Source of the DNA: a virus
Virus record (IMG/VR): IMGVR_UViG_3300005663_000101
Span: 1 to 41,132 of that record
Reading direction: 5' to 3' (one strand)
DNA length: 41,132 nucleotides
Made by a program: the position numbers and the translations under genes. Under the pieces are notes generated by a model. It was given only the letters and a program-made list of their open reading frames with translations, searched no databases and was not told the origin of the DNA. How positions within the stretch are numbered: position 1 is the stretch's first letter; each line of letters begins with the position of its first letter. Below are positions 15,469 through 41,132 of the stretch, piece by piece.

Positions 15469-16725
15469 TTGGTTGCATTAACCCCAGTCGCTAAACATTC
15501 TAATAATCCGTTCCAATTCAAAGTCCTTAAAGTTGAACTTGCTACTAGACGGACAAATAATACATTAGATCCATTTGTTGATATTACGCGCTTTGTAAAG
15601 AAGGGCGGAATAAGCCGTTTGAGTAAGTCTATAGATTCAAATGACTTTGATATTGGATTTTTTGAACAATCAAATTTAACACTCACCCTAGATAATTCTC
15701 AAGGTCAATTTATGAAAGGGAGAGGTTTTTTTGTAAACAAGATCATAGATAGGTCTAGAGTGAAGGTGGTGGCCGGATTTAGGAACATAGACGATGGCAC
15801 TATCGATTCCGAAACTACATTTGAGGGGATATTGTCCGCTGAGACGGCCAACGCTTCCCTTAGATCTGAGACTATAACCTATAAGATATTAAGTTTCAGT
15901 TCATTGATTACAAGATTAAGAAGCAGATCCGCCGCAGTTGATGACGGTATGGACTTCAGGACTGCTATATTCAACCTATTAAATATTAATGAAATCAAAA
16001 CCTATATCACGGTCGATATAAACAATATAAACCCTAAATTCAACGGCACGGTTGATAGTGGTGTCTTTTTTGAGGGTAAACAGTTAGATGAATCTATAAA
16101 TAAACTCTTGTTAGCCTCCAATTCTGTATTAAAAATAAAAAACAACACTATTTTCATACAGGATAGGGAACAATCTGTAGATGTTAAGTTTGAATACTTC
16201 GGCAAGGGAGGCACTAGACCGGCTAATATAATAGATATTAGCAACTATAATGAAGGGGACAAAAGAATCATCACTCGTGTCCAATTTGAGGGTGATCTAG
16301 GGGTGTTTGATTCCCCCGACTTTATTATTGATAAGTTCGGGGCTAAATTAAAACGTGTTGATATAGGATTTATTACCAATACGATTAAAAAGTTTGGTAT
16401 CTCGCAAGATATACTAGGAGAGTTCCAATTCCCGAAAACTGAGTTTCAAATCACAGGCCCTTATTTAGGCGAACAGGTCGATTTATTAGATTTAATAACA
16501 GTAGATAACCCAGGGTATGATTTTAATACAAACGTGGCCCTGTATGACTCCCCTGATTCGGAATATGACACTGATGACGTATACGCTAGTAGTAATACAG
16601 GTTTGATAATTGATAAGAATCTGGGGTTTAAAGTCTTGAAAGTAGAACATGATTTTGCGAGGTATCAAACTAAATTAAAAGTGAGAAGGATTGGTAGCAA
16701 GGAATTTGATGGTCAGTTAAGTTAG
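15469..16725 (+). CDS. Baseplate hub / tail-associated protein
   Basis: A 418-aa protein after the Dit-like gene, where siphoviruses encode the hub (gp27/Tal-type). It begins with a beta domain (LKVELATRRTNN, VDITRFVKKGGISRLS, NLTLTLDNSQGQF) typical of hub N-termini and a middle segment with FFEGKQLDESINKLLLASNSVLKI. It ends in a beta domain repeating the FKVLKVEHDF pattern. The start is TTG at 15469, with AAAGAGGTG eight bases upstream; no in-frame ATG is near. There is no obvious lytic domain. Its end overlaps the convergent minus-strand gene by four bases. Confidence 0.65.
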   Translation: MVALTPVAKHSNNPFQFKVLKVELATRRTNNTLDPFVDITRFVKKGGISRLSKSIDSNDFDIGFFEQSNLTLTLDNSQGQFMKGRGFFVNKIIDRSRVKVVAGFRNIDDGTIDSETTFEGILSAETANASLRSETITYKILSFSSLITRLRSRSAAVDDGMDFRTAIFNLLNINEIKTYITVDINNINPKFNGTVDSGVFFEGKQLDESINKLLLASNSVLKIKNNTIFIQDREQSVDVKFEYFGKGGTRPANIIDISNYNEGDKRIITRVQFEGDLGVFDSPDFIIDKFGAKLKRVDIGFITNTIKKFGISQDILGEFQFPKTEFQITGPYLGEQVDLLDLITVDNPGYDFNTNVALYDSPDSEYDTDDVYASSNTGLIIDKNLGFKVLKVEHDFARYQTKLKVRRIGSKEFDGQLS

Positions 16726-16991
16726 CGGTTTTCTTTCTTGTCTCTATATTTACGAAACTCGACCTTAACAGTATCCAATTTTTGAAAATTCATTATATTT
16801 TTATCAATGAAGGATTCAATGTACGGGATTAAGGACTTCATATTTGAAAATTCTTTTCTAACTTCATCTATCTGCACATCAAAATACCCATTAAAAACCT
16901 CCATTAGAATATCAATATCCCTTATTCTTTGGTCTAAATCAATTAATTTCTGGTCAATCTCAACCAATTTTATATCAATAGTGGCGTTCAT
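16722..16991 (-). CDS. Small coiled-coil protein
   Basis: An 89-aa almost wholly helical protein with heptads (KLVEIDQKLIDLDQRIRDID) and a basic end (KYRDKKENR). Last gene of the minus-strand fibre operon, converging on the hub gene with a four-base overlap. The start lies one base past the neighbour's stop. It could work with the upstream membrane protein in lysis or be a fibre accessory; no family recognised. Confidence 0.55.
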   Translation of the reverse strand: MNATIDIKLVEIDQKLIDLDQRIRDIDILMEVFNGYFDVQIDEVRKEFSNMKSLIPYIESFIDKNIMNFQKLDTVKVEFRKYRDKKENR

Positions 16992-17324
16992 TTAGATAAC
17001 TTTCCCAGTAGCTAAAGCGAAGATTTGCTTTCTCAACTCTTCAAATTGTTTACCGATATGGATTTTGAATTTATCATCGATACTAACTTCGAATTTTTCT
17101 AGACTTTTGTCTATAGCTTTTTCTATGGATTCTATTTGTTCATCTATGTCTTTTTTAGTGTAAACGGACTCTTTGAATTTCCTGAAATCTTTTGAAATTT
17201 CTTTTTTTCTTTTAAAAATATAGCCAGTCCAAAAGAGATTACCAATAACTAACGAGCCAAAAATTGTCATTGGTGTAGAATTAAGTATGAAGTCTACTAT
17301 ACCTGTAATGCTCTTTATCATCAT
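16992..17324 (-). CDS. Membrane-anchored coiled-coil protein
   Basis: A 110-aa protein with one hydrophobic segment near the N-terminus (about residues 18-37, IFGSLVIGNLFWTGYIF) followed by a Lys/Glu-rich coiled coil. This topology resembles inner-membrane spanin subunits or small phage holin-like proteins, but no motif decides. It lies in the fibre operon next to the coiled-coil gene. No clear ribosome site precedes ATGATG, so translation may be coupled to the gene upstream. Confidence 0.55.
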   Translation of the reverse strand: MMIKSITGIVDFILNSTPMTIFGSLVIGNLFWTGYIFKRKKEISKDFRKFKESVYTKKDIDEQIESIEKAIDKSLEKFEVSIDDKFKIHIGKQFEELRKQIFALATGKVI

Positions 17325-17327
17325 CGT

Positions 17328-17651
17328 TTAGGTGAGCGTTTCCAGGGATACCTTTCTTGAATTCAGTATTGTTAATTGAGAAGCAAATACAGAAAATTGA
17401 GTCGTGAAGCTTAATTCATTGGCTTTATCTTTTTGTAGTTCTAATAAAACAATTTGGGTTTCAATATTTCTTAATTCATCATTACGAGACTGATTAAAAT
17501 CATACCCAGGGTTAGGAACCCAAGCACTATTTGCATACCACTCTTTAATCTTTTTATCTTCTACAAAGCTACATAAGCCTTCATTTGGTCCTTCCACTAT
17601 GATCCCAGGCTTATAATTAACAATTGTATTATCAAATAATTTTACATCCAT
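17328..17651 (-). CDS. Possible tail fibre assembly chaperone
   Basis: A 107-aa protein directly downstream of the fibre gene. The N-terminal half has aromatic strand-like motifs (WYANSAWVPNPGYDF); the C-terminal half is one long helix with regularly spaced hydrophobics (ELRNIETQIVLLELQKDKA). This shape is like that of fibre-assembly proteins, which fold the fibre C-terminus. I chose ATG 17651, one base after the fibre stop; another ATG at 17669 would overlap the fibre gene by 17 bases. Function inferred from position and shape. Confidence 0.5.
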   Translation of the reverse strand: MDVKLFDNTIVNYKPGIIVEGPNEGLCSFVEDKKIKEWYANSAWVPNPGYDFNQSRNDELRNIETQIVLLELQKDKANELSFTTQFSVFASQLTILNSRKVSLETLT

Positions 17652-17652
17652 T

Positions 17653-19275
17653 TTATTGCCTATAGTCATAGCCTACAGCGGCTAAAAATGCTTCGCTCAC
17701 CATTGATTTAAGCGCTAAGATCGTTCCGTTTTGTATTAACATATTAGCAGAGATACCGGTTTCTTGGGTGAACCCAGATGTTGATTGAACAGCATATACT
17801 AGCATTCCACTTGTAGCGGTAAAAGCCCGGATGACAAAAAATACTTCTTGGATATTTGGATTTTGTGCCGTAGCAACAAACCTACATATCCAATTGTTTA
17901 TAGGGGCCGGGATCGTATTGAAATCATTCAACGTTAATGAGGTGGATAAACCTGTTGATTCCTGTGCGTTATGGTAATGATACTGTCCCTTTTGATAATC
18001 GAATTTTAAAATATTACTAGCCCCATCATTAAAGACGGTTACTCCGGTCCATCGCCAATATCTGAATGGATGATAGTACCCTTCTTTCTTATCTGGCAAC
18101 CTAGGCGGTTTATCTGAGAAGAAATAATTTAAATCTGAATCGACATAAATATAATATAAAGTATTGGCCGTCTCACTTACACCCGACTCTAAATCAACAC
18201 TCAATTGGATTTCCCTTCCGAAATGATTTTCCATTGTAAAGAGTTGTCCAGCAACGGAAACGTCCTTAGCATTAATCCTGACGGTATCGTCATCAACAAA
18301 AAAAGCATCTAAGTCTAAATTAGAAGCCCAAGCTAAGTCAAAATCGTTAGCCTCAACAGCGACTACCTGGGTGTCATCCACTATGGCGATGCCTATAAAA
18401 TGAATATCTTTGTTCTCAAATAGAGATCCATTGAATCTTTGCCAACGTTTTGAGTCTGTATTGAAATAGATATCACCTAAAGAAGGGGAACCTGGATCAA
18501 ATGATTGAAACTCAGGGGGTCTAGTAGGTGCGAAAACAGTGGTTAAATCAGCATCTAAGAAGATGTAACTTGTTCTGAGTAATGTGATTACATCATTATT
18601 GGCCATTTCTTCACGTTCAGAGCCGCCTATTCCTCTCTTAAACGCATACAATCGACTATTGGTATTATCTATTAGTGCAAGAAAGAATTCTGGTCCTGCG
18701 CCGTGTTGAAATGCCTGTATGGTTCCATCTAAACCTGTTATTTCAAGCCCCGCAGTATCATAATTAATAAACGTAGACCCGAATTCACCCTCAGTTTCAG
18801 TGAATTTTTGATTGGCATACGCTGCATCACTAACAAGTGCGGTATTATTAGCAGCCGGAGCAGTTAAAAGCCCAGTAACAAGGATATCACTCTCTAGAAT
18901 TACAGTTTCTTTATTGATTACAAGTTCTAAGTTTGGATTAGCCCCCCCCGCTTTAATATTTATATTTGTACTAGAAGCTACAACCTCTAAAAAGTCAGGG
19001 AATCCATCTAACGTTGCTTTCCCCGCCTGTATTTGATGGTTTAAACTTTGAAAGTTAGTTAAGTCTAAGACCTCACCCTTACGAATTATATTGCCTAAGA
19101 TGCGAAGGTTTTGAAATTCGCCACCTTCGGTTCCCAAGTCGCCCTCACCGGGAGCTGAAACCCCAAGTGAATTACGACAAGTTATATCTTCAACAAAAGC
19201 ATCTTTATACTGATTGACGTCATCTGAGATTATCTTATTCCCAGGGGCCTTTGTTACTAATGTGTTGGTACTCAT
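17653..19275 (-). CDS. Tail fibre / receptor-binding protein
   Basis: A 540-aa fibre-type protein on the strand opposite to the tail module. The N-terminus (KIISDDVNQYKDAFVEDI) may attach to the baseplate. Then come shaft-like repeats (FPDFLEVVASSTNINIKAGG), a common fibre segment GSPSLGDIYFNTDSKRWQRFNGS, and a C-terminal region with YHYHNAQES and a hydrophobic tail that may be the receptor-binding tip. A run of eight G (18942-18949) lies near codon 109. No Shine-Dalgarno precedes the ATG, but a TAAAAT hexamer is placed six bases before it, which would make the mRNA leaderless if used. Confidence 0.7.
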   Translation of the reverse strand: MSTNTLVTKAPGNKIISDDVNQYKDAFVEDITCRNSLGVSAPGEGDLGTEGGEFQNLRILGNIIRKGEVLDLTNFQSLNHQIQAGKATLDGFPDFLEVVASSTNINIKAGGANPNLELVINKETVILESDILVTGLLTAPAANNTALVSDAAYANQKFTETEGEFGSTFINYDTAGLEITGLDGTIQAFQHGAGPEFFLALIDNTNSRLYAFKRGIGGSEREEMANNDVITLLRTSYIFLDADLTTVFAPTRPPEFQSFDPGSPSLGDIYFNTDSKRWQRFNGSLFENKDIHFIGIAIVDDTQVVAVEANDFDLAWASNLDLDAFFVDDDTVRINAKDVSVAGQLFTMENHFGREIQLSVDLESGVSETANTLYYIYVDSDLNYFFSDKPPRLPDKKEGYYHPFRYWRWTGVTVFNDGASNILKFDYQKGQYHYHNAQESTGLSTSLTLNDFNTIPAPINNWICRFVATAQNPNIQEVFFVIRAFTATSGMLVYAVQSTSGFTQETGISANMLIQNGTILALKSMVSEAFLAAVGYDYRQ

Positions 19276-27706: not shown

Positions 27707-27958
27707 ATGAAGTTTTTAAATATAGATATCGAGGGTGATACATACAAAATCTTATCAGGAGCTGATTTCACAACAAGGCTAATAGGAATAGAAAATATTC
27801 AAGAAGAAATCCTATCTTTGATTCAAGCAAAAGATACAATTCGGGAGTTTAATATGGAGGAGTTGGGGGGTGGTCTTGATCGTAGGTTAAAAGATTCCTT
27901 ATTCCAGATGAGCGCAAAGCTTAAGCTTTTAGGAGAAGATTATGTACAGATTCCCTGA
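27707..27958 (+). CDS. Hypothetical protein upstream of the annealing protein
   Basis: An 83-aa alpha/beta protein with a Gly-rich turn (MEELGGGLDRRLK). Ribosome site TAGGAGGAAATT. Overlaps the start of the Rad52-like gene by 17 bases, so they are probably co-translated and may interact. Function unknown. Confidence 0.55.
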   Translation: MKFLNIDIEGDTYKILSGADFTTRLIGIENIQEEILSLIQAKDTIREFNMEELGGGLDRRLKDSLFQMSAKLKLLGEDYVQIP

Positions 27959-28865
27959 AGAAGGAACGGTTGAATACGACTTTCAAAAGCCATTTAGAGA
28001 GGAGGAAATAGGGTGGAGGCCTCAATCCACGGGGGTAAAGCGTGATAAGGATGGGGAAGACAAGCCCTGGGTTATGTGTTTGGCCTACGTGCAGGCTAGA
28101 TCCGTTCAGAGCAGATTAGAAGAGGTTCTTGGTTTCGATGGATGGGAGACGGAATATAGGAATGTACCAGGCGGAGTTATGTGTAAATTAACTTCGCATA
28201 AGGATGGCCGAACCGCATCGAAAGAAGATGGCTCCCCCGATGAATCTGATATAGAGCCATTTAAAAGTGCAATAACGGGATCATTTAAACGTGTGGCGTC
28301 TTCAGGATTTGGTATAGGCAGGTATTTATACTCCCTAGATACGGCCTTTGCCTCTCAGTGCTCTTTTTCATCACAGTCGGGATATGAATTCCATAAGGGT
28401 AAACCTGGGGAGAAGAGCATTTGGTGGCTACCTCCAAAGCTTCCGTCTTGGGCAATCCCACAAAGCTTCCGTGGGGGGTCCAACTGTACGATAAATTCGG
28501 ACAGTTCAAAACCAAAGGATTATCAGATGAAGCCAGCGGCATACTGCGAGGACTGCAAGGCTGGTATAACGGATAAAGTTAAAAGCTACAGCCTAGAGAA
28601 GCACAAGAAAATACTCTGTATGAACTGTCAGAAAAAAGAGACGTCAGTCCCGTACTCAGGGGCAATAAAGACATTGCCTAAGAAAGGTGTCAACAAAAAC
28701 GAATGTGTTGACTGTAAGGAGGTTGTGACGGACGACGTGAGAGATACTAGCCTCATTCATTACAAAGGAGTCTTTTGTTATGATTGCCAGGAAAAAAAAC
28801 CTCTTAGACAGGTAATCCAACAATGGGAGCTTGAACCAAAAGAAAACCCAGTGTATCCGGTTTAA
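27942..28865 (+). CDS. Rad52/22-type single-strand annealing protein with two zinc ribbons
   Basis: A 307-aa protein. Residues about 10-150 match the Rad52/22 family: EEEIGWRPQSTG, CLAYVQARSVQSRLEEVLGFDGWET, KSAITGSFKRVASSGFGIGRYLY. It would anneal complementary single strands during phage recombination and concatemer formation. The second half carries two CxxC-n-CxxC units, CEDC...CMNC (about 200-229) and CVDC...CYDC (about 255-279), which is unusual for the family and could bind DNA or a partner. Its ATG lies within the preceding gene, with AGGAGAAGATT before it. RusA lies downstream, a common pairing. Confidence 0.75.
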   Translation: MYRFPEEGTVEYDFQKPFREEEIGWRPQSTGVKRDKDGEDKPWVMCLAYVQARSVQSRLEEVLGFDGWETEYRNVPGGVMCKLTSHKDGRTASKEDGSPDESDIEPFKSAITGSFKRVASSGFGIGRYLYSLDTAFASQCSFSSQSGYEFHKGKPGEKSIWWLPPKLPSWAIPQSFRGGSNCTINSDSSKPKDYQMKPAAYCEDCKAGITDKVKSYSLEKHKKILCMNCQKKETSVPYSGAIKTLPKKGVNKNECVDCKEVVTDDVRDTSLIHYKGVFCYDCQEKKPLRQVIQQWELEPKENPVYPV

Positions 28866-34374: not shown

Positions 34375-34521
34375 TGTAGGAATTGTACAAGCCTGTTAAC
34401 ACTAATATGCGCGTTGGCTTTTGGTGGGAATCCGAATCTACATTATTTACGGCCCCAGCGTAGGCTTCACGCCTGCGTCCTGATGATCTATATGGCTTAG
34501 TGGGGCCGGTCCGAACTCCGT
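34375..34521 (+). ncRNA. Folded leader RNA before the esterase gene
   Basis: Two modules without an ORF. Module 1: TGTAG (34375-34379) with CTACA (34438-34442), enclosing AAGCC/GGCTT (34389-34393 with 34416-34420). Module 2: an eight-base perfect stem, 34450-34457 with 34501-34508 (CGGCCCCA with TGGGGCCG), enclosing an eight-pair hairpin, 34458-34465 with 34471-34478. ACGG (34449-34452) can alternatively pair with CCGT (34518-34521), next to the weak ribosome site, so a switch between folds could control translation. No known class recognised. Confidence 0.5.
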
Positions 34522-34528
34522 GGAAGTG

Positions 34529-35353
34529 ATGAATATTAAATTAATCCTTATCTTAGTCATATTATTAACCGCTTGCGCCCCTATTAATAATTCAATCTCA
34601 TTAGAGATCAAACAACCTCCTACAAAAATATTCATTCTAGCTGGTCAATCAAATATGGTTGGTAGAGCTGGGTTAATTGAAGATGATTTTAATTATTTCA
34701 ATGAAAACATTCTAGTTTTTGGGAATGATTATCAATTAAAGATAGCTTATGAGCCTATAGATAATGGTGATGGGCAGATTGATATAGCATCATATGACAA
34801 ACGTCCCCAATTTGGCCCTTCAATGCCATTTGGGATAGCTATGAGTACTTATCTAAACCAAAAGGTCATACTAGTCCCCTGTGCGTTAGGTGGATCGTCT
34901 ATATCTCAATGGGAGAGACCTAAAAACCCGTTGGATACGTACACATTGTATGGATCTTTAGTAAATAGAGCATTGATAGCAAAACAAATGAGTAATGGGA
35001 TCATAGCGGGTGTAATTTGGTTTCAGGGTGAGAAGGACGCCGTTAGTTATTTAGACACGCATTCTAATTACTTAAATCTATTCATTAAATTCGCAACAAA
35101 TATCAGAATAGATTTAAGAGATAGCCAGATGCCGTTTATTTATGCCCAGTTAGGGCCACAAGATAATAATGAACTGTTTACGTACTGGGATGATATAAAA
35201 GCGCAACAGGAGCAAGCCCAATATCTAATCTCTAATTCAAAGATGATTAAAACCGATGATCTAACCATATTTGATTATGTTCATTTCACGCATAGAAGCT
35301 ATGAACTTATAGGGCAAAGATTCGCTGAGGCCTTTATTAAAGTTGATATATAA
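34529..35353 (+). CDS. SGNH-type esterase lipoprotein (sialate O-acetylesterase-like)
   Basis: A 274-aa protein. Its signal ends in lipobox LLTAC (Cys16 from ATG 34529), so it should be membrane-anchored and face outwards. The SGNH/carbohydrate esterase blocks are present: FILAGQSNMVGR (nucleophile Ser), GGSSISQW (oxyanion Gly), VIWFQGEKDA and the C-terminal DYVHFTHRSY (Asp/His). The family removes acetyl groups from sugars, so it may change host surface glycans or LPS. No good ribosome site precedes the ATG (a GTG lies at 34520), in line with control by the leader RNA. Sits alone in an island between hairpins: a cargo-like gene. Confidence 0.75.
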   Translation: MNIKLILILVILLTACAPINNSISLEIKQPPTKIFILAGQSNMVGRAGLIEDDFNYFNENILVFGNDYQLKIAYEPIDNGDGQIDIASYDKRPQFGPSMPFGIAMSTYLNQKVILVPCALGGSSISQWERPKNPLDTYTLYGSLVNRALIAKQMSNGIIAGVIWFQGEKDAVSYLDTHSNYLNLFIKFATNIRIDLRDSQMPFIYAQLGPQDNNELFTYWDDIKAQQEQAQYLISNSKMIKTDDLTIFDYVHFTHRSYELIGQRFAEAFIKVDI

Positions 35354-37053: not shown

Positions 37054-37064
37054 ATTTAAACTCC

Positions 37065-37092
37065 TTGATTAATATATTTACTATGCTAGAAT
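37065..37092 (+). promoter_or_regulatory. Promoter of the packaging operon
   Basis: TTGATT (37065-37070), 16 bases, TAGAAT (37087-37092) with TGC directly upstream (extended -10). Start near 37099, nine bases before the ATG at 37108. Drives the dead recombinase gene and perhaps the methyltransferase and terminase genes. Confidence 0.6.
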
Positions 37093-37107
37093 ACCCGTCG
37101 GTGAGTT

Positions 37108-37851
37108 ATGATATACGGATATTCTACATACATTAAAGCAGATTTCGAGTTACAATCTCAAACGGAAGTTTTGAATAGGTACGGTTGCGCCAAGATATTA
37201 TTGGACCAATTTGTAGGCGATAAAAAAAATCATAAGAATTTGAAGGAACTTATGGGTAAAATGATTCCAGGCGATGAATTAATAATCTATAAATTGAGTA
37301 ATTCAGGACTTAATATTAATCAGCTTTGCTATTTGGTTAAGCATCTGAGGAAAAACGGTATCCATTTCCGAAGTATCTTAGATGGTGTCGATACAAAATC
37401 AGAAAATGGAACTTATTTTTTAAATTTTATAGAATCTATATCAGACTTAGAGAAAACAGAGAAAATTACAGAGAAGACTATGGAGAAAAATCCTGCTATT
37501 GAACCTAAGATTATTGCCGATTCTAAAAAATCAAAACGAGGGAGAAAGCCTAAGTTCTCATATGCCCAGATAATGGATATAAAATCCCAGCATCTTAGGA
37601 AAGTGCCTATTAAACACATAGCAAAAGAATATAATGTTACCATCGCCACTATTTGGAACTACATTAAAAAATCTTACGGTGAAGATTTTCGGTACGTCCC
37701 CGAGAAGGATTCAGAGAAAGTTAACGCGAATAATGTTAATTTTGAAGATATTGCTTTCAAAGACTTCAAGATAGTTAGGACTAAAAAGAAGCAAAATACA
37801 TATAGCGGAGAGGCTATGACCGTTAATAAAGGGCAAATGTGTTTAGTTTGA
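37108..37851 (+). CDS. Serine-recombinase-fold protein lacking catalytic residues
   Basis: A 247-aa protein. Residues 1-130 align without gaps to Hin/resolvase catalytic domains (for instance GY at 4-5, QSQTEVL, GCAKILLDQF, PGDELIIYKL, IHFRSILDGVDT). The nucleophile region GYxRVST is GYSTYIK, so the catalytic Ser is Ile and the Arg before it is Thr. The conserved LDRLGRS reads LSNSGLN, losing Asp and both Arg. The C-terminus keeps a basic hinge (SKRGRKPKF) and a Hin-like helix-turn-helix (IAKEYNVTIATIWNYIKK). It cannot cut DNA by the known mechanism, so a DNA-binding or regulatory role is likely. Placed before the methyltransferase and terminase genes. Confidence 0.75.
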   Translation: MIYGYSTYIKADFELQSQTEVLNRYGCAKILLDQFVGDKKNHKNLKELMGKMIPGDELIIYKLSNSGLNINQLCYLVKHLRKNGIHFRSILDGVDTKSENGTYFLNFIESISDLEKTEKITEKTMEKNPAIEPKIIADSKKSKRGRKPKFSYAQIMDIKSQHLRKVPIKHIAKEYNVTIATIWNYIKKSYGEDFRYVPEKDSEKVNANNVNFEDIAFKDFKIVRTKKKQNTYSGEAMTVNKGQMCLV

Positions 37852-37911
37852 TATAATTATCTGTATTCTACCTACCGACACCTTGTCTTTAGGTATAAAT
37901 CAGGAGAAATT

Positions 37912-39141
37912 ATGCCAGAAATAATATGGAAAACTGAAAAAAGAAAGATATCAGATTTAGTAGAATTTAAAAATAACCCCCGAAAACTTTCCGAAAAACA
38001 AGCTGAAGATCTCAAGAAAAGTCTGAAAAAATTTGGGCTTGCTGAAATACCAGCTATAAATACAAATAATACAATTCTTGCTGGTCACCAAAGAATAAAA
38101 ATTCTATCACAACTAAAGGGTCCCCAATATGAAATTGATGTTCGCATTCCTAGCAGGGAATTAACTGATAAGGAATCTGAAGAATATGTGATTCGGTCTA
38201 ATCAAAATACCGGGGAATGGGATCGCGACATTCTCAAAGATATGTTTGATATGGAAGATCTTTGTGATTGGGGATTTGATGAAGATGATCTAACTATACT
38301 GGATGAAGAATTTGAGGGTACCGAGGGGGATGATGATGTAGGTGAGGCGCCAGAGGAACCCGTTACCAAAATAGGGGATATGTACCATCTAGGTGAACAT
38401 AAACTTTTATGTGGTGATAGCGCGTTTATAGATGATGTACAGAAGGTGATGGAGGGCCAACTCGCAGATATGTTATTTACAGACCCTCCTTATGGGGTTT
38501 CGTATGAAGGGGCTGCTTATGACGGGAAAAGAAAAAAAAGATCAAAGATTGAATCCGATGATTTGAATGAAGAAGATTTAAAAAATAAAGTCAAAGAATG
38601 GTTTTACAATGCCTCTACAGTATTAAGAGGTGGGGCGTATACCCTATCAACAGTTCCTGCCGGGCCTCTACATTTAATATTTACAGAGGTCTTCAAAGAA
38701 TTAGGATGGTTAAGACAGGTTCTTATCTGGAATAAACAAGCGATGGTTATTGGGAGGTCGGAATATCACTACAAACATGAACCCATTCTTTTTGGGTGGG
38801 TCCCTGGTAAGCGTTTGAACTGTCCGGATAGAACAAAAACCAGTGTATGGGATTTTAACCGCCCTACGCGTAGCGACCTTCACCCGACAATGAAACCCGT
38901 TGAAATGTGGATGTACGGGATTAAAAATCATACAAAAAAAGGTGATTTATTGTACGAACCTTTTGTGGGGTCAGGCACCACCTTAATTGCGTGTGAAAAA
39001 ATGGGTAGAAAATGCTTTGGTTTAGAAATTGACCCAAGATATTGTGACGTGATCGTGAAGCGGTATGTGGATTTCTGTAAAAAAAATAAAAAAGAACATT
39101 CTGTTATGAGAAATGGAGAAATTTGCAATTTCTTTGATTAG
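37912..39141 (+). CDS. ParB-like domain fused to DNA adenine methyltransferase
   Basis: A 409-aa fusion. Residues about 1-110 are ParB/Srx-like: NPRKLSEKQAEDLKKSLKKFG and TILAGHQRIKIL. Residues about 155-400 are an N6/N4 methyltransferase with TDPPYG (about 190-195, motif IV) before FVGSGTT (about 350-356, motif I), the order of the beta class. HPTMKPVEMW is also typical. It would methylate a specific site on phage DNA, perhaps guided by the ParB domain, for protection from restriction or to mark packaging. No partner endonuclease is encoded. Ribosome site CAGGAGAAATT. Confidence 0.85.
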   Translation: MPEIIWKTEKRKISDLVEFKNNPRKLSEKQAEDLKKSLKKFGLAEIPAINTNNTILAGHQRIKILSQLKGPQYEIDVRIPSRELTDKESEEYVIRSNQNTGEWDRDILKDMFDMEDLCDWGFDEDDLTILDEEFEGTEGDDDVGEAPEEPVTKIGDMYHLGEHKLLCGDSAFIDDVQKVMEGQLADMLFTDPPYGVSYEGAAYDGKRKKRSKIESDDLNEEDLKNKVKEWFYNASTVLRGGAYTLSTVPAGPLHLIFTEVFKELGWLRQVLIWNKQAMVIGRSEYHYKHEPILFGWVPGKRLNCPDRTKTSVWDFNRPTRSDLHPTMKPVEMWMYGIKNHTKKGDLLYEPFVGSGTTLIACEKMGRKCFGLEIDPRYCDVIVKRYVDFCKKNKKEHSVMRNGEICNFFD

Positions 39142-39158
39142 TACTTATTATATTAATT

Positions 39159-39605
39159 ATGATTAATACTGAAAAACAGCGCATTAACAGCAATGGAAAC
39201 AGCAATGGAAACAGCAGAAACAATGTTGTAGGGCGCCCTTTTTCAAAAGGGATATCAGGCAATCCAAATGGACGGCCTAAAAAGGAAAAAACATTTTCCG
39301 ATACTGCCGCGCAATTATTAGCCTCTTCTAATATACAAATAAAATATGAGATAAATGGCCGTGAAAAAGAAATAAACCTTAAATCAGATAAAAATATATA
39401 TTGGGGACTCGTTTCAGCTCTTATTTTACAAGGTCTAAAGGGGGATGTGCGAGCGATAAAAGAACTGATCGATAGAACAGAGGGTAAGGCCGTGCAAAAA
39501 TTAGATATTGAGGGTAGCCTAGAGACAAATATCCCTGATTTATCGCATTTAGGCAGGGGAGACTTAGAGAAATTATATGCAAATCTCTCAGAGGGGAATT
39601 CTTGA
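39159..39605 (+). CDS. Probable small terminase (DUF5681-type)
   Basis: A 148-aa protein with a GISGNPNGRPKKEKT motif (about 31-45), characteristic of DUF5681 proteins that lie beside large terminases. An Asn/Gly/Ser repeat at the N-terminus (NSNGNSNGNS) is disordered. The helical core with LQGLKGDVRAIKELIDRTEG fits DNA-binding small terminases. No ribosome site precedes the ATG. Overlaps the large terminase by 29 bases. Would recognise phage DNA for packaging. Confidence 0.65.
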   Translation: MINTEKQRINSNGNSNGNSRNNVVGRPFSKGISGNPNGRPKKEKTFSDTAAQLLASSNIQIKYEINGREKEINLKSDKNIYWGLVSALILQGLKGDVRAIKELIDRTEGKAVQKLDIEGSLETNIPDLSHLGRGDLEKLYANLSEGNS

Positions 39606-41028
39606 TGCAACTGAAAAGGCCTTGTGCGAAAAATCTTTTTACCATTTCTTTAAAATAGGTTGGAAATCTGTTGATTCGGATGAATTTGTTGATGATTGGC
39701 ACATTAAAGTTTTGTGCGACTCGTTGCAATCTATTTTTGAGGGAAAAGTAACTCGGTTAATTATCAATATCCCACCACGATGCAGTAAATCCACAATAAC
39801 ATGTGTTTTTTTTCCTGTTTGGTGTTGGATAAAACGACCACAAATGAAATTCCTAACCGGTTCACATACTAGAGATTTATCTACCCGGGACACAGTTAAA
39901 TCTAGATATTTGATGCAATCGCCGTGGTTTTGTAATTTATGGGGTAACGCATTCAAATTATCTAGCGACCAAAATCAAAAAACATATTATACAAATACAG
40001 ATATGGGGGCAAGATATTGCTATAGCGTAGGTGGGGGCATTACAGGTACGGGTGCTGATATCATATTGTTAGATGATCCTATTGATTCTCAGGGCGCAAA
40101 CTCGCAAAAAATACGTGAGGGTGTCAATTTATGGTTTGATGAGGCATTATCAACAAGGCTCAATAGTCAGAAATCGGGATGTATCATCTTGATAATGCAA
40201 AGATTGCATTCGAATGATTTGACCGGTTATTTACTATCGAAAAGCAAAGAATGGGAACATATATGCTTACCTATGCGGTTCGAATCTAAAAGCCCCTATG
40301 ATAAACGAAAGAAGATAGGTCAAATATTATCCAAAAGATTCCCGGAAAAATATTTAAAAAAATATGAAAAAAGAGTAGGTCGGTATGTCGTAGCCTCTCA
40401 ACTTCAACAGAGGCCATCACCTAGAGAGGGGGGCATAGTGAAATCCGATTGGATTGATAAATATTCGGTACTACCAAGCAAGGTGTTGTCTTATGAGTGG
40501 TCTTGGGACAGTGCAATAAAAACCGGGAAAAATAATGATTATACGGTAGGTACATATTGGGCAGAATGTGATAGTGGGTATTATTTAGTTGATATGTTTA
40601 GGAAGAAAGTCGAATACCCAGAATTTAAGAAAAGGTTAGAATCTCTATATTACAAACATGTATCAAATGCAATTTTGGTAGAAGATAAGTCATCTGGCCA
40701 GCAAATAATACAAGAATACAAAAGAAGAACACGCTTACCCATAATAGGGATGATGCCTGGCAGAGATATGCTTTCTTCTAAAGAAGAGCGATTGATACAG
40801 GTATCAGATTTATTTGAATCTGGGGTGGTTAAATTCCCAGAAAAGGCCCCTTGGCTTGAAGACGTAATCGATGAATTAACAAATTTCCCAAACGCCCAAC
40901 ATGACGATATTGTGGATAGTATTTCGCAGTATCTATCAAGAAGGATAAGGAAGATGAGAAACTCAAAGCCATTAGGAGATGACATCCAAGATGATCTAAA
41001 AACCAAATCTAATTCCCTTGATTGGTAA
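39577..41028 (+). CDS. terL: Terminase large subunit
   Basis: A 483-aa packaging motor. ATPase: LIINIPPRCSKST (Walker A variant, about 61-74) and ADIILLDDP (Walker B, about 159-167). The nuclease domain has SWDSAIKTGKNNDYT (about 307-321), LVEDKSSGQQI (about 366) and HDDIVDS (about 441-447), whose Asp residues bind metal. The start overlaps the small terminase. The end coincides with the right terminal repeat, and the same 50 bases are found at 1-50. It belongs to the family often found with DUF935 portals; no Mu-type cos or pac site could be recognised. Confidence 0.9.
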   Translation: MQISQRGILDATEKALCEKSFYHFFKIGWKSVDSDEFVDDWHIKVLCDSLQSIFEGKVTRLIINIPPRCSKSTITCVFFPVWCWIKRPQMKFLTGSHTRDLSTRDTVKSRYLMQSPWFCNLWGNAFKLSSDQNQKTYYTNTDMGARYCYSVGGGITGTGADIILLDDPIDSQGANSQKIREGVNLWFDEALSTRLNSQKSGCIILIMQRLHSNDLTGYLLSKSKEWEHICLPMRFESKSPYDKRKKIGQILSKRFPEKYLKKYEKRVGRYVVASQLQQRPSPREGGIVKSDWIDKYSVLPSKVLSYEWSWDSAIKTGKNNDYTVGTYWAECDSGYYLVDMFRKKVEYPEFKKRLESLYYKHVSNAILVEDKSSGQQIIQEYKRRTRLPIIGMMPGRDMLSSKEERLIQVSDLFESGVVKFPEKAPWLEDVIDELTNFPNAQHDDIVDSISQYLSRRIRKMRNSKPLGDDIQDDLKTKSNSLDW

Positions 41029-41132
41029 AATAATAGTATAATTTAAATATATTATTTTTATAAATCTAAAAATAGGTAGGGAAAAATGGCTATTTTCGAC
41101 ACTAACGGAAACGAATTTCAAGTTAAGACATC
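40979..41132. repeat. Right copy of 154-bp terminal direct repeat
   Basis: Identical to 1-154. Includes the end of terL, the spacer and the first 15-16 codons of the portal (start at 41086), which are therefore a partial duplicate, not a second gene. Confidence 0.95.

Follow-up and report, generated by a model that had tools for sequence, protein, structure and literature searches.

We have found that a phage genome carries, just ahead of its packaging genes, a gene for a small serine recombinase (P0001) whose active site, judged from its sequence, has been erased. We propose that this protein may well be domesticated, a non-cutting, dimeric and sequence-specific DNA-binding protein that regulates the late gene unit, its own gene or the neighbouring holin gene. 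The window analyzed, i.e., the whole stretch of 41,132 nucleotides, has identical ends of 154 bp (1–154 and 40979–41132), indicating a complete circular or terminally redundant phage genome of about 40,978 bp. The features discussed are listed in Table 1.

Table 1. Coordinates of P0001, its domains and the surrounding features in the window.
Feature	Coordinates	Strand	Evidence
Holin-like gene, divergent from P0001	36631..37053	-	phrog_3427 holin 6.9e-6; PF11351 under cut-off
54-bp gap separating P0001 (+) from the divergent holin-like gene (-), candidate autoregulatory region	37054..37107	.	Promoter-like TTGATT-16-TAGAAT 37065-37092; TAGAATAC 37087; GTCGGT 37097
P0001, small serine recombinase of 247 aa, DNA-invertase type, lacking all the catalytic residues tested and predicted to bind DNA	37108..37851	+	Profile, alignment, AlphaFold, Foldseek
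P0001 resolvase-fold domain, residues 1-127, including long helix E (99-127)	37108..37488	+	pLDDT 76-96 in blocks 1-120; Foldseek; alignments
P0001 C-terminal DNA-binding part (predicted), basic GRKPK arm and HTH, residues ~142-191	37531..37680	+	HTH_7 sub-gathering; AlphaFold
P0001 C-terminal extension, ~57 residues (190-247), low-confidence/disordered	37675..37848	+	Alignment, AlphaFold
60-bp gap between P0001 and methyltransferase, candidate operator	37852..37911	.	Dyad 37870-37894; reverse-complement TAGAATAC 37863, GTCGGT 37874
ParB-like + N6/N4 DNA methyltransferase (MTase), second gene of unit	37912..39141	+	PF01555 4e-26; phrog_498 2.6e-109; phrog_620
DUF5681 protein, TerS candidate, 29-bp overlap with TerL	39159..39605	+	PF18932 4e-13; TerS position in relatives
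Terminase large subunit (TerL)	39577..41028	+	phrog_38 1.7e-95; PF17289

Identity and fold of P0001

The reading frame runs from an ATG at 37108 to a stop codon at 37849–37851 and had been recognized as a serine recombinase in the original prediction, with the right coordinates. Its homology is far above chance, with matches to the Pfam Resolvase family PF00239 (2.5e-14, residues 12–126) and to PHROG 125, annotated as 'DNA invertase' (4.3e-23, residues 1–213). Compared with relatives of solved structure, the best match was Gin (1.6e-18) followed by the gamma-delta resolvase (4.9e-10), which places P0001 with the invertases among the small serine recombinases.

An AlphaFold model was obtained from an alignment of 35 sequences (A4, P0001 plus 34 others), with a mean pLDDT of 75 and 101 residues above 90. 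Its catalytic domain superimposed on the gamma-delta resolvase with a TM score of 0.83–0.86 at about 2 Å in Foldseek, and all the Foldseek matches below 1e-3 were serine recombinases, so that the recombinase fold has indeed been kept, as predicted. The same applies to the C-terminal helix-turn-helix (HTH), which was modeled as three helices (152–163, 168–174 and 179–190) with pLDDT of 93–94, the HTH_7 profile matching at E = 0.0017, under the Pfam gathering cut-off. The linker (128–143) and the tail (206–247) are disordered in the model. The alignment to Hin and resolvase, described before as gapless, does not remain so over the whole protein, since about 7 residues have been inserted after helix E and before the HTH, besides the C-terminal extension, for which no homology was found.

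Loss of the active site

Using the gamma-delta numbering, the alignments gave the replacements R8 to T7, S10 to I9, R45 to H42, D67 to S64, R68 to N65 and R71 to L68, i.e., the six tested positions have all been lost. Five of these (Ile9, Thr7, Ser64, Asn65 and Leu68) had been named in the original prediction, all of them correctly, and Arg45 to His42 is an additional one. The Asp equivalent to D36 of gamma-delta is retained as D33. In place of the Ser10 nucleophile, Ser in 34/34 aligned relatives, P0001 has Ile9. Thus, of the features that define a small serine recombinase, P0001 has the resolvase fold and the C-terminal HTH and lacks Ser10, Arg8, Arg45, Arg68, Arg71 and Asp67. In A4, conservation of each of the six catalytic columns among the remaining 34 sequences is 97% or higher. 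P0001 retains none of these columns versus 25 of the 38 comparison columns with a conservation of 85% or more (Fisher p = 0.004), which indicates that the loss is specific to the active site.

Genomic context

The profile matches bear out the neighbourhood originally described, a ParB-methyltransferase and terminase genes with P0001 heading the packaging unit. The gene opens an unbroken plus-strand unit of about 20 kb that continues from the methyltransferase, TerS candidate and TerL across the join of the genome to portal, protease, major capsid protein (MCP) and tail genes, ending at 16.7 kb. No second serine recombinase was found in the genome (P0001 matched itself alone) and there were no integrase family matches among the ORFs scanned. 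In the TerL-anchored loci of related phages we found no P0001 homologue, and the locus with the best synteny (L247) has the series MTase-TerS-TerL without it. P0001 is thus an accessory gene added before a common packaging module. The gene preceding the MTase/TerS in other phages gave a weak positional hint, since in one phage it is annotated as antitermination protein Q, unconfirmed by Pfam, and other phages differ.

Elsewhere in the genome, positions 34520–35353 code for a secreted-looking carbohydrate esterase of the SASA type (sialic-acid acetylesterase family; PF03629, 2e-46) with a lipoprotein-like signal, and 27942–28865 for a Rad52/Erf-like protein for single-strand annealing, the C-terminal region of which has repeated CxxC (DksA-like zinc finger). 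There is also a 22-bp inverted repeat (16506–16527/17493–17514) with 21/22 matches; the genome has no other as good, and none turned up in 60 simulated genomes. The repeat encodes NPGYDFN in frame in two convergent genes of the tail region, 15469–16725 (+) and 17328–17669 (-), and the sequence from 16506 to 17514 could be an invertible segment that swaps C-termini, or a recombination scar. A motif found by eye joining 37093 to the repeat at 16.5/17.5 kb was devised after looking, and its p-value was discarded.

Relatives of P0001

At least 219 distinct relatives were scored among the matches listed, with identities to P0001 of 35.1% or less. All six catalytic positions were kept in 192 of them, five in 23, four in 3 and three in 1, so that 215 of the 219 keep at least five. 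The four lowest-scoring relatives listed seemed to have lost the Ser; in three (L164, L362 and L318) this was a gap artefact, the Ser being present on reading by eye, and only L354 truly lacks it. No close relatives of P0001 were found among the matches listed in the alignment-based scans, nor in exact-peptide scans with P0001, TerL and the MTase. We also searched 2.9 million viral contigs at the DNA level with Asp67 replaced: the pattern GD-EL-IV-YKL retrieved three unrelated proteins and no recombinase, and GDTLVVWKL gave no match. These searches support, short of proof, that active-site loss of this type is rare in the collections searched. P0001 therefore stands on a long branch of its own, and the matches listed contain no clade in which the loss could be tested. 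Homologues with an intact active site had been put forward as evidence against the prediction; nearly the whole family is intact, and this has no bearing on a protein that lacks close relatives in the collections searched.

Decay or constraint

P0001 could be a decaying remnant, a jobless invertase that is drifting and not yet broken, the former substrate of which could be the 22-bp inverted repeat. This would account for the disappearance of all the catalytic residues, and the unique repeat that links two convergent tail-region genes in frame speaks in its favour. So does the very long branch of P0001, 1.41 substitutions per site once the active-site columns were removed (median for its relatives 0.20, longest 0.82), which also fits relaxed constraint. 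However, P0001 has lost 19 of 44 conserved positions, and random hits giving such losses would be expected to bring along about 139 missense changes and 9–11 stops, when neither stops nor frameshifts were seen (P ~1e-4 to 2e-5 for the stops, a rough estimate because some of the divergence is older than the functional loss). The stop-free frame of 247 codons thus argues against decay, as do the 25 of 38 other conserved positions retained and a plausible ribosome-binding site (GGTGAG) before the ATG. The codon usage resembles that of the neighbouring phage genes, a weak test as shifted frames score nearly equal. Besides, the cognate crossover site (hix-like dyad with a ACCNNGGT core), searched as AACCNNGGTT, had no match in the window. 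We consider decay of P0001 unlikely.

A putative regulatory role

A retained protein that binds DNA is the best-supported reading (fold kept, active site lost, no stops), in line with the recruitment suggested in the original prediction; the dedicated role named there, be it regulation, packaging-site recognition or something novel, is one that we infer. P0001 would derive from a DNA invertase of a phage or plasmid, having lost the ability to cleave strands while retaining the C-terminal HTH and a resolvase fold suited to dimerisation. Two copies joined through helix E would then present a pair of HTHs and bind without cutting to short operator-like sites in the gaps at both sides of the gene, controlling the packaging, head and tail unit, the P0001 gene or the divergent gene for the holin. 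The position at the head of the unit favours regulation without proving it. Resolvases still able to cut also repress their own genes or operon, so that loss of catalysis would leave a ready-made repressor.

Both gaps contain candidate operators. The words TAGAATAC and GTCGGT, found 4 and 7 times respectively in the 41 kb, appear together, no more than about 12 bp apart, on either side of P0001, in the plus strand at 37087/37097 and in the minus strand at 37863/37874. The second gap, the leader of the methyltransferase, has an imperfect 25-bp dyad (ACCTACCGACACCTTGTCTTTAGGT, 9/11 pairs) that might serve as an operator or fold into an RNA hairpin; the whole genome has 22 dyads this good. The promoter-like sites around the first gap were not above those of shuffled sequence, Rfam gave no match and a genome-wide repeat search for a P0001 binding element returned the short flanking motifs and no convincing repeat. 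Hence these shared words and the dyad are leads only, not statistically established.

P0001 might instead mark the pac or cos DNA together with the terminase, also without cutting. It shares a unit with TerS and TerL. This role is weakened by the separate TerS candidate located directly before TerL and overlapping it, as in related phages; P0001 itself had no TerS family match in Pfam or PHROG. Furthermore, the module of L247 indicates that related phages package their DNA without P0001, so we regard this alternative as improbable. Still harder to sustain is that P0001 acts as a dominant-negative inhibitor, pairing with active serine recombinases from its host or from competing phages or plasmids, or occupying their sites, and so blocking recombination. 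The predicted dimer-forming catalytic domain and the HTH would allow it, but the identity of about 30% to any active partner among the listed relatives makes heterodimers or common sites doubtful, and the location in a late unit does not point to such a role. Finally, the conserved arginines of serine recombinases position the scissile phosphate, and it is very improbable that P0001 still recombines with another residue as nucleophile, in spite of the retained D33 and the nearby S6 and T7, because R8, R45, R68 and R71 are also missing.

A recombinase without the catalytic Ser in Enterococcaceae

The search with P0001 also led to L354 (1468–2052, minus strand), a Ser-less serine recombinase gene from a Bacilli genome. 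Its orthologues (L383–L412) are located between rpiA and gpmA in 30/30 genomes, as a core 'recombinase family protein' of Enterococcaceae, and the E. faecalis orthologue (WP_002356188.1, L413 4001–4576) adjoins the rpsL-rpsG-fusA genes. Ser10 is Thr in 30/30, D67 is His in 27/30 and Arg71 is Lys in 21/30, with a median dN/dS of 0.07 over 49 usable pairs. These data indicate that small serine recombinases without the Ser can persist under purifying selection, which sets a precedent for P0001. The gene is apparently a domesticated serine recombinase and its product is likely dead, although the Thr might in principle still serve as nucleophile. Like P0001 it is a small serine recombinase devoid of the catalytic Ser; unlike P0001 it is a chromosomal core gene that keeps R8 and, in 27/30, R68. 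P0001 clustered with this family in a first comparison, but the grouping vanished once the active-site columns were removed, and the two losses look independent.

It is conceivable, if somewhat short of an even prospect, that serine recombinases became non-cutting DNA-binding regulators more than once, as P0001 and the Enterococcaceae gene would exemplify, a counterpart of the phage repressor MrpR that went unrecognized because the annotation reads 'recombinase family protein'. If true, annotations as 'invertase' or 'recombinase' need a check of the active site, and the control of phage late genes gains an unexpected type of regulator. The Enterococcaceae gene makes the idea of domestication testable in a tractable organism.

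Comparison with known systems

The gamma-delta/Tn3 resolvases provide the best fold matches to P0001 in the PDB, but their active site is lost in it and the sequence similarity is lower than to Gin (5e-10 versus 1.6e-18). With Gin, Hin and Pin (PF00239 plus HTH_7, PHROG 125) P0001 shares fold, domain order, long helix E and HTH at about 26–34% identity. It differs from them in being devoid of the Ser nucleophile, the four tested arginines and the Asp of DRLGR, in the linker insertion and the 57-aa tail, and in that there is no invertible segment beside the gene. A literature search retrieved no dead serine recombinase serving as a DNA-binding protein. The closest parallel is MrpR (YopR) of phage SPbeta, a DNA-binding master repressor with a tyrosine-recombinase fold and its catalytic residues lost (PMC10516654). 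The function of MrpR is proven and that of P0001 inferred, and the folds are those of tyrosine and serine recombinases, respectively. In both cases, nevertheless, a phage recombinase fold has been left with its catalytic residues gone, accompanied in P0001 by a predicted DNA-binding role.
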